This document shows, piece after piece, positions 25,256 to 26,295 of a stretch of DNA of 64,000 nt. The position numbers were made by a program, and so were the translations under genes. A model generated the notes under the pieces. That model worked only from the letters and a program-made list of their open reading frames with translations. It made no database searches and was not told where the DNA came from. The stretch is from Bacteroidales bacterium (GTDB lineage: Bacteria; Bacteroidota; Bacteroidia; Bacteroidales; UBA7960). Each line of letters opens with the position of its first letter. Within the stretch, counting starts at the first letter, position 1. The DNA lies in the NCBI GenBank assembly GCA_007118495.1, contig SKRM01000004.1, positions 62,001-126,000 on the forward strand. The letters run 5' to 3'.

Positions 25256-25300
25256 TGCGTCCGACAGTAATTTCGCATGAAAAAAAATTCATGTACATTT
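25256..25300 (+). repeat. 45-bp direct repeat, upstream copy (decayed pgeF promoter copy)
   Basis: An exact 45-base copy of 25393-25437, starting TGCGTCCGACAG and ending CATGTACATTT, offset by 137 bases. It contains a -33 like TTTC (25271-25274) and TACATTT at the -7 place. The base that follows is C instead of the G found in the downstream copy, so this promoter copy has lost the last consensus base. Confidence 0.9.
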
Positions 25301-25396
25301 CTTCTGTAAAAAAGCAGCCATTTTGTATTCCCAAAAAAACAAAATGGCTGCTTACAGATGGAACCGCTTCGCTTTCCCATGATTTTTTTTCATGCG
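25274..25396. repeat. Inverted repeat pair flanking an 84-base segment
   Basis: The left arm 25274-25293 (CGCATG, eight A, TTCATG) and the right arm 25378-25396 (CATGA, eight T, CATGCG) are reverse complements except for one missing base. The right arm overlaps the first bases of the downstream 45-bp repeat. Together with the third copy in direct orientation at 25411-25430 the same 20-mer occurs three times in 160 bases. Confidence 0.85.
25304..25357. repeat. Long hairpin inside the pgeF upstream region
   Basis: CTGTAA plus GCAGCCATTTTGT (25304-25326, with four extra A in the middle) pairs with ACAAAATGGCTGC plus TTACAG (25339-25357). The loop is about 12 bases. No T run follows the stem on the plus strand, and no gene ends just before it, so it is not an ordinary terminator. 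Confidence 0.8.
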
Positions 25397-25437
25397 TCCG
25401 ACAGTAATTTCGCATGAAAAAAAATTCATGTACATTT
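25393..25437 (+). repeat. 45-bp direct repeat, downstream copy (active promoter copy)
   Basis: This is identical to 25256-25300 over all 45 bases. Here the following base is G, completing the -7 box TACATTTG. It spans the -33 to -7 region of pgeF. Confidence 0.9.
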
Positions 25438-25438
25438 G
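25408..25438 (+). promoter_or_regulatory. Promoter of the pgeF-pepT-radical SAM-DUF6873 operon
   Basis: TTTC (25408-25411), 19 bases, then TACATTTG (25431-25438) fits the TTTG-N19-TAnnTTTG layout with one mismatch. The predicted start near 25441 leaves a leader of about 24 bases. Confidence 0.6.
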
Positions 25439-25464
25439 GGTATTATTACAAAAGTTCTTCCGCT

Positions 25465-26295
25465 ATGATATCTCATGAAAACAGTGAAACCAAGTACTAT
25501 ACATTTGAGAATCTGTCTGGGTTTGACCAGATTTGTCACTTTGTTTCTACCAGAAAGGGTGGTTTGAGCGATAATCACTTTGCCAGCCTGAATACTGGTT
25601 TCCATGTGGGAGATGATAATTTCAAGGTGCTTCAGAACAGAAGAATACTCGCCAATGCAGTTGGCATTGATATACTGAAGCTCACTTTTGCCAATCAATG
25701 CCACAGCGCCAATGTGGCCATAGTGAATGAAAGCGGACGGGGAAAAGGAGTCCTTGAAAAAGAAACGGCTGTTGACCATACTGACGGATTGGTAACCAAT
25801 GTGAAAGATGTTTGTTTATGTGTACAGGTTGCTGATTGTGTTCCCATATTGCTTTATGATCCCGTCTGCCAGGTTGTCGCAGCCGTTCATGCGGGGTGGA
25901 AAGGAACACTTAGAAAAATTGCCTCTGAAGCCGTAGCCAAAATGATACAACACTACGGTTGCAAGGCCGAAAACATTTATGCCGGGCTTGGGCCATCAAA
26001 CGGCCCTTGCTGTTATGAGGTGGGGCCCGATGTATACAGAGAGGTGAAAATCTCTCTCGGACAGGCAAAAAATATTATCTTTCCTGGAACAAAACCCGAT
26101 AAATATATTTTTGATCAGTGGCAGGCAAATGTCCGGCAACTGACCGATGCCGGATTAAAGAAAGAGCACATTGAGCAATCGGACATATGCACCCAATGCC
26201 ATAGCGACACATTTTTCTCATCCCGTCAAGATCAAGGACATACCGGTCGGTTCATGGCAGGTATTATGCTGAAAAAGCCGAAATATACTGCTTAA
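25465..26295 (+). CDS. pgeF: PgeF/YfiH/LACC1 family multicopper-type purine nucleoside enzyme
   Basis: This cytoplasmic protein of 276 residues belongs to the DUF152 family, named peptidoglycan editing factor in enterics; related human LACC1 (FAMIN) and bacterial members act on purine nucleosides. The metal-binding trio is present: His80 in NQCHSA, Cys125 in VADCVPI, His142 in AVHAGWKG. The ATG at 25465 is chosen because it lies after the predicted transcription start. The frame is open to 25414, but that segment is inside the duplicated promoter. It is the first gene of a four-gene run with pepT (20 bases later). Confidence 0.88.
   Translation: MISHENSETKYYTFENLSGFDQICHFVSTRKGGLSDNHFASLNTGFHVGDDNFKVLQNRRILANAVGIDILKLTFANQCHSANVAIVNESGRGKGVLEKETAVDHTDGLVTNVKDVCLCVQVADCVPILLYDPVCQVVAAVHAGWKGTLRKIASEAVAKMIQHYGCKAENIYAGLGPSNGPCCYEVGPDVYREVKISLGQAKNIIFPGTKPDKYIFDQWQANVRQLTDAGLKKEHIEQSDICTQCHSDTFFSSRQDQGHTGRFMAGIMLKKPKYTA

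Follow-up and report, generated by a model that had tools for sequence, protein, structure and literature searches.

The 64,000-nucleotide stretch of Bacteroidales bacterium DNA that we have analyzed (contig SKRM01000004.1, positions 62,001 to 126,000; referred to as the window) harbors a pgeF-like gene (PF02578, 25465..26295, + strand) whose likely start is the ATG at 25465. Upstream of this gene lies a 45-nt sequence with exactly two occurrences in the window, at 25256..25300 and 25393..25437, both on the + strand. The two copies are 100% identical, their starts are 137 nt apart, and the downstream copy ends 27 nt ahead of the likely pgeF start. Judged by its length, an exact pair of 45-mers inside 1.2 kb should be far beyond chance. 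The downstream copy precedes four same-strand genes, by Pfam PF02578, an M20 peptidase, a radical SAM protein and DUF6873, in agreement with the four-gene context given in an earlier note on this DNA. That note had also reported the exact duplication and the retention of a final G by the downstream copy alone, and both observations hold: G follows the downstream copy, forming TACATTTG at 25431..25438, and C follows the upstream copy. Here, we propose that the pair was left by a non-autonomous element, the pgeF-type element, which is probably mobile and inserts in a promoter box that is thereby restored, and we consider this reading rather probable.

The -7 consensus of Bacteroidetes promoters is TAnnTTTG, according to the excerpt of PMC7366714 that describes it, and the gene-proximal box TACATTTG (+ strand), to which the unit gives TACATTT and the host flank the G, matches this consensus. 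The same pattern is enriched upstream of genes in the window (12 of 23 genes, 1.5 expected). The -7 element that had been claimed for the 45-mers is clearly visible as a box at the end of each copy, minus its last base in the upstream one. The accompanying -33 element did not stand up, as no clear -33 motif is seen in the copies, nor at any of 12 native TAnnTTTG sites in the window. A scan for sigma-70 promoters and intrinsic terminators between 25180 and 25500 returned none, and Rfam at gathering score matched neither the window nor four element-bearing loci. The 221-nt region at the locus folds with a z value of -6.57 against shuffled sequences, none of 200 shuffles being as good.

The downstream 45-mer (+ strand) is the right-hand part of a full unit of 137 bp (25301..25437, + strand), which runs from CTTCTGTA to TACATTT and whose ends recur in related loci. 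The order within the unit is CTYCTGTA, left hairpin, TACAGGAGGAACCGCTTCGCTTTCMCATGA, right hairpin and ATGTAYATTT. The left hairpin (25303..25358, + strand; inner arms 25312-25329 and 25336-25353) begins 2 bases past the left junction and is present in the 33 seeds that were folded, some of the folds being weak. The conserved core GGAACCGCTTCGCTTTCCCATGA (25360..25382, + strand) leads into the right hairpin (25382..25425, + strand; arms 25382-25396 and 25411-25425), which carries compensatory changes in relatives. The right arm of this hairpin falls inside the 45-mer, and its left arm follows the core, between the two copies. The upstream 45-mer (+ strand, right-module score 38.1) is the right-hand part of an earlier unit that has no left part; it ends in TACATTT, and the C behind it opens the next unit. 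Terminal inverted repeats were not found, the left end CTCCTGTAAA and the right end ATGTAYATTT not being reverse complements of each other.

Searching the genome of the window (G000) with the 221-nt region at E<=0.001 returned 14 matches, namely the query, its own hairpin read backwards and 12 other places with diverged copies. The earlier note had held that many dispersed copies would make the pair part of a mobile repeat, and such copies are present here and in other genomes of the genus. Among 41 genomes searched with the same region 12 matched, 11 of the 21 genus members (G000 included) and G038 from another family. The covariance model R1 of the right part, built from 23 rows (alignment A1 omitted L006 and L024 from 25 right parts), found matches at E<=0.01 in 11 of 21 genus genomes and in one of 20 others (G028, a single weak match). 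Counted with the antisense matches of the palindrome, R1 has 21 matches in G000, 94 in the copy-richest genome G013, 33 in G012, 17 in G017 and 15 in G008. When a 137-bp unit from G013 was compared with 393 genomes of the order (E<=1e-6), 12 genomes matched, three in the genus and nine outside it. Six of these nine, from families f38 and f99, have matches running from base 1 or 2 to base 136 or 137; in G038, G245 and G234 the match is restricted to the core, or just before it, onward. At the sequence level, these comparisons establish a dispersed family with defined ends. The exact core pattern was further found in 32 stretches of metagenome-assembled genomes (MAGs) titled Bacteroidales or Bacteroidetes bacterium. 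A distant-match search of plasmid and phage collections with the L009 unit gave none, and a search of titles and abstract openings in the literature turned up no description of the element.

The unit is modular. In L005, L015, L024 and L048 an extra stretch of about 100 nt lies between core and right hairpin. This stretch (ATGAACCGAGCCACC...GGTGGCGAGCTCAC...TTTAATCAAAT), seen in L060 and L068 as well, reads by eye as roughly 30 open codons in some copies and is interrupted by a stop in others, and a palindrome related to it stands alone ahead of a gene at L187 (G003). In L030, L033, L034 and L050, from other MAGs, this position is taken by a different hairpin stretch, ATTACACAT...ATGTGTAAT followed by CGACGAAGTC. 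Since different stretches occupy it, the position seems to be one where other repeats can insert. In L018, L292, L293 and L294 (G038, G245, G234) a relative of the core is joined to a left part and a right end that differ from those of the unit; several of the G038 copies lie at contig ends. In G013, runs of TTAAACCC-like repeats occur near several elements or genes (L020, L037, L048, L051), and the arrays L020 and L054 have a common extra upstream sequence, GGTGAAAGACCTTGAGA, which may belong to a larger repeat.

The unit has a defined junction at the -7 box. The loci examined gave 146 distinct right ends, which are followed by G in 126 cases, by A in 5 and by C in 15. All 15 C-ends lead into another unit, and at the terminal ends the element end and a host G complete the box in 126 of 131. 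On the other side, TAnnTTT stands directly before CTYCTG in 21 of 29 single units and ATTT in 25 of 29, although not all of these are independent native sites, because some left flanks, as at L048, L055 and L058, belong to an older right-hand part. From the 53 left-end matches 10 had been dropped, nine as the left hairpin read backwards (scores 19-22) and one as degenerate (L013). The unit thus stands between TTT and G of TAnnTTT|G and brings its own TAYATTT, so that the box reads complete beside the gene. Because units sit between TTT and G, the upstream 45-mer copy lacks the G. TAnnTTT is found on either side of the unit, as it might be after a target-site duplication, but the two motifs often differ in their inner bases, with 5' TAAATTT (L021, L040) or TAGATTT (L015) against 3' TACATTT or TATATTT, and the 3' motif keeps the spelling of the element where relatives have TATCTTT or TAAATTT.

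The element is also oriented towards genes. An ATG-initiated open reading frame (ORF) of at least 100 aa begins on the same strand within 150 nt of 104 of 124 terminal right ends (median 39 nt; ends with less than 460 nt downstream were left out of the 131), compared with 19 of 101 in the opposite direction and 1188 of 4000 random points (29.7%). In G000, after removal of 3 of 30 loci as antisense matches of the same places, a same-strand ORF lies downstream of 26 of 27 model matches, with the ATG at most 64 nt away in 21 of 27. The one match without an ORF is L128; L126 is the upstream copy of the pgeF pair. Judging by N-termini, we take the carriers to include sucC-, gcvH-, mutS- and dnaB-like genes, and from translations presumably the same gene carries the element in two species in the case of dapF-like (L026, L075), DUF3127-like (L042, L082) and phosphatase-like genes (L006, L014). 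An ATG within the right hairpin, at 25414, lengthens the longest pgeF ORF by the stretch 25414-25464. Automatic gene calls at other copies of the element may be lengthened in the same way, and this is a warning for annotation, as is the fact that several G013 contigs break at the repeats, beginning or ending at element copies.

Relatives without the element mostly have a bare box upstream of the gene. The pgeF gene was compared at 16 loci in 15 genomes (G016 twice; only 147 nt upstream for G008). At 15 of the 16 there is no profile match, and a bare TAnnTTTG lies at most 120 nt from the match start; at the sixteenth, in G013, the contig starts within a right-hand part. For nine element-bearing genes of G013 we considered 28 orthologs from G003, G018, G010 and G020, and TAnnTTT[GA] was found within 120 nt of the start in 24 of them (5.8 expected from shuffles). 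The distances to the ATG are kept at some of the genes: from the junction 30 nt at L048 and 30 and 30 in two orthologs; from the box 23 at the L052 gene and 23, 23 and 22 in orthologs (nearest boxes), 45 at L056 compared to 42, 39, 44 and 44, and in rough agreement 55 at L041 compared to 40, 52 and 53. Sequence behind the junction is common to orthologs at L048 (GCACTC) and at L051 (GTCATTGTT or GTCAT in three of five), and the unusual A after TTT at L027 recurs in both orthologs. At L048, 113 nt separate the end of the conserved upstream neighbor from the left junction, compared to 104 and 99 nt up to the bare box in two relatives. Because the flanks on both sides nearly keep their length, 229 bp appear to have been inserted at this site. 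On the pgeF tree the label 'element present' requires 3 changes (shuffled mean 5.9), in a weak tree with 7 of 14 inner branches open.

The identity of the two 45-mers could be taken as a local tandem duplication of the native pgeF promoter region with no wider meaning. They are 100% identical when their mean identity to five other loci of this genome is 77% (maximum 82%), and two arrays in G012 are alike in pattern (0.98 within the array, 0.81 and 0.83 outside). However, the duplicated sequence and the intervening hairpins belong to a dispersed family, and arrays of the same period exist at other places: the spacing of 13 neighboring pairs of right-hand parts is 135-139 in 12, the pgeF pair among them, and 200 in one. 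In four arrays the similarity of the copies does not exceed that of typical pairs or falls below it (L010 0.71, L011 0.82, L226 0.80, L049 0.69), and the arrays of G013 do not stand out either (0.80-1.00 within, background means 0.77-0.94). As the whole story local duplication is refuted, and we give it hardly any weight. The recent duplication envisaged by the earlier note fails as a purely local event, since diverged copies occur elsewhere, but survives as a second step: because the copies are so much more alike than copies at other loci, local copying or homogenization of the two right-hand parts has likely taken place at pgeF in addition to insertion. A regulon is another possibility, in which the right hairpin would be an operator palindrome that a regulator binds and that one gene set has conserved in its promoters. 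The palindrome adjoins the -7 box, weak copies that lost everything else still have the right part, and the genes that presumably carry it in two species would fit as well. What argues against an operator is that the arms of the hairpin change together, which indicates that the pairing and not a binding sequence is kept. In an alignment of 96 rows one pair occurs in three states and is paired in 84 rows (shuffle maximum 61, 36 double changes), and a second is paired in 90 (shuffle maximum 88); the remaining four of six pairs are not above shuffles, and kinship among the copies inflates these counts. In the 23 rows we count 11 double-change cells and a covariation score of 0.145 compared to 0.063 after shuffling (0 of 500); the measures 'pairs changed on both sides' (3) and 'further pair types' were equalled by 112 and 58 of 500 shuffles, the other three measures by none of 500. 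Moreover, 10 of the 21 genus genomes have no R1 match, the genes look functionally unrelated as we read their N-termini, and the left hairpin, the core and the tandem arrays would need another explanation. We therefore regard a regulon as quite unlikely.

The element could instead have spread by recombination between promoter regions, that is by promoter exchange or gene conversion, without a transposition-like insertion. Native boxes similar to the right end, such as AAAAATTCATACATTTG ahead of pgeF in G020, could seed such an exchange, arrays look homogenized in G000 and G012, and no enzyme was found among the three families searched. Exchange fits poorly with L048, where the site gained 229 bp with little replacement, and with the sharp ends of the unit across families, described above for the matches in six genomes of two other families. 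We judge this route improbable, and insertion would be the usual one. Several observations weigh against insertion in a promoter box all the same. In the genus genomes the Y1 transposase family PF01797 occurs in 7 of 21, including G012, and is not found in G000, G013, G008 and G017 (the MAGs being incomplete, with some contigs ending at these repeats); IS110 (PF02371) was seen in G020 only and reverse transcriptase (PF00078) in G003, G005 and G016 only, so that none of the three offers a candidate or is co-distributed with the element. The junction-to-ATG distance differs from orthologs at L051 (175 compared to 32-33), L037 (234 compared to 36 in one ortholog, three orthologs having no box), L027 (126 compared to 34 and 37), L044 (43 compared to 92) and L032 (28 compared to 55 and 24, one ortholog without a box). 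Both flanks could be compared at L048 only, because the species are far apart; no upstream match was obtained for L032, L044 and L051, of which two have little sequence, and at L037 the upstream lengths disagree (-319 to -326 compared to -234, -344, -700 and -700). The exact TAnnTTT is missing to the left of 8 of the 29 single units. Finally, the right-end model behind the count of terminal Gs was built from rows ending in G and is biased toward this base, and weak model matches may be plain native promoters, because the model contains the box.

In the insertion model that we favor, a unit would insert directly after the TTT of the -7 box TAnnTTT|G. With the TAYATTT at the end of the unit, the host G would complete a new TAYATTTG beside the gene, and the old box would be left as TAnnTTTC on the far side. 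Units also stand directly behind other units, which produces the 137-bp period and the direct repeat. At pgeF, the left part of the first unit has been lost, and the right-hand parts probably were copied or homogenized locally. The restored box would drive the gene, and a second start after the upstream TACATTTC could make this the dual promoter suggested by the earlier note. Hairpins near the junctions, the lack of terminal inverted repeats and the fixed short site point to a single-strand, hairpin-guided process, and the hairpins would then serve a single-strand step of transposition. IS200/IS605 elements and REP/REPIN sequences have hairpins near their ends and insert 3' of a short fixed sequence. 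The pgeF-type element resembles them in its hairpins near both ends, in its tandem units and probably in the short fixed sequence 5' of it. Unlike IS200/IS605, no match to a Y1 transposase accompanies it in this genome or in G013, and its single-strand movement is putative.

Promoter-carrying repeats have been described before. In the excerpt of PMC2649163, the Correia repeat enclosed elements (CREE) appear as short, dispersed, hairpin-bearing sequences that often lie 5' of genes and can complete a promoter by insertion, as in the 'Black' promoter of Neisseria, where the element supplies a -35 and a partial -10 that is completed by the site. The pgeF-type element is similar in these respects. 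However, its site is the -7 box itself, nearly always the same end faces the gene, and its ends are not mutual inverted repeats. The BrickBuilt miniature inverted-repeat transposable element (MITE) of Porphyromonas gingivalis, for which its authors raised the idea of a putative mobile promoter, is likewise intergenic, modular and from the Bacteroidales; it has internal tandem repeats and promoter activity (PMC4596501). The internal repeats of BrickBuilt measure 23 bp, its best copy is bounded by terminal inverted repeats of 12 bp, its target duplications are 4 bp long (GAAA, AAAA) and its promoters are bidirectional, whereas such internal repeats, terminal inverted repeats and target duplications were not seen in the pgeF-type element. 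The new aspect here would be the precise seat inside a core promoter box, with rebuilding of this box, in one orientation.

A further step would be that the housekeeping -7 box itself is the target, in that a hairpin-ended single strand enters the bubble opened by the sigma factor and leaves the box rebuilt, which would allow the host gene to remain expressed. We consider this extension unlikely, but the question whether the element chooses melted promoters has become testable. If it were true, promoters would be both target and safe harbor, and the element would be the origin of many housekeeping promoters in these bacteria. If the insertion model is correct, a mobile sequence could multiply in front of housekeeping genes without silencing them.
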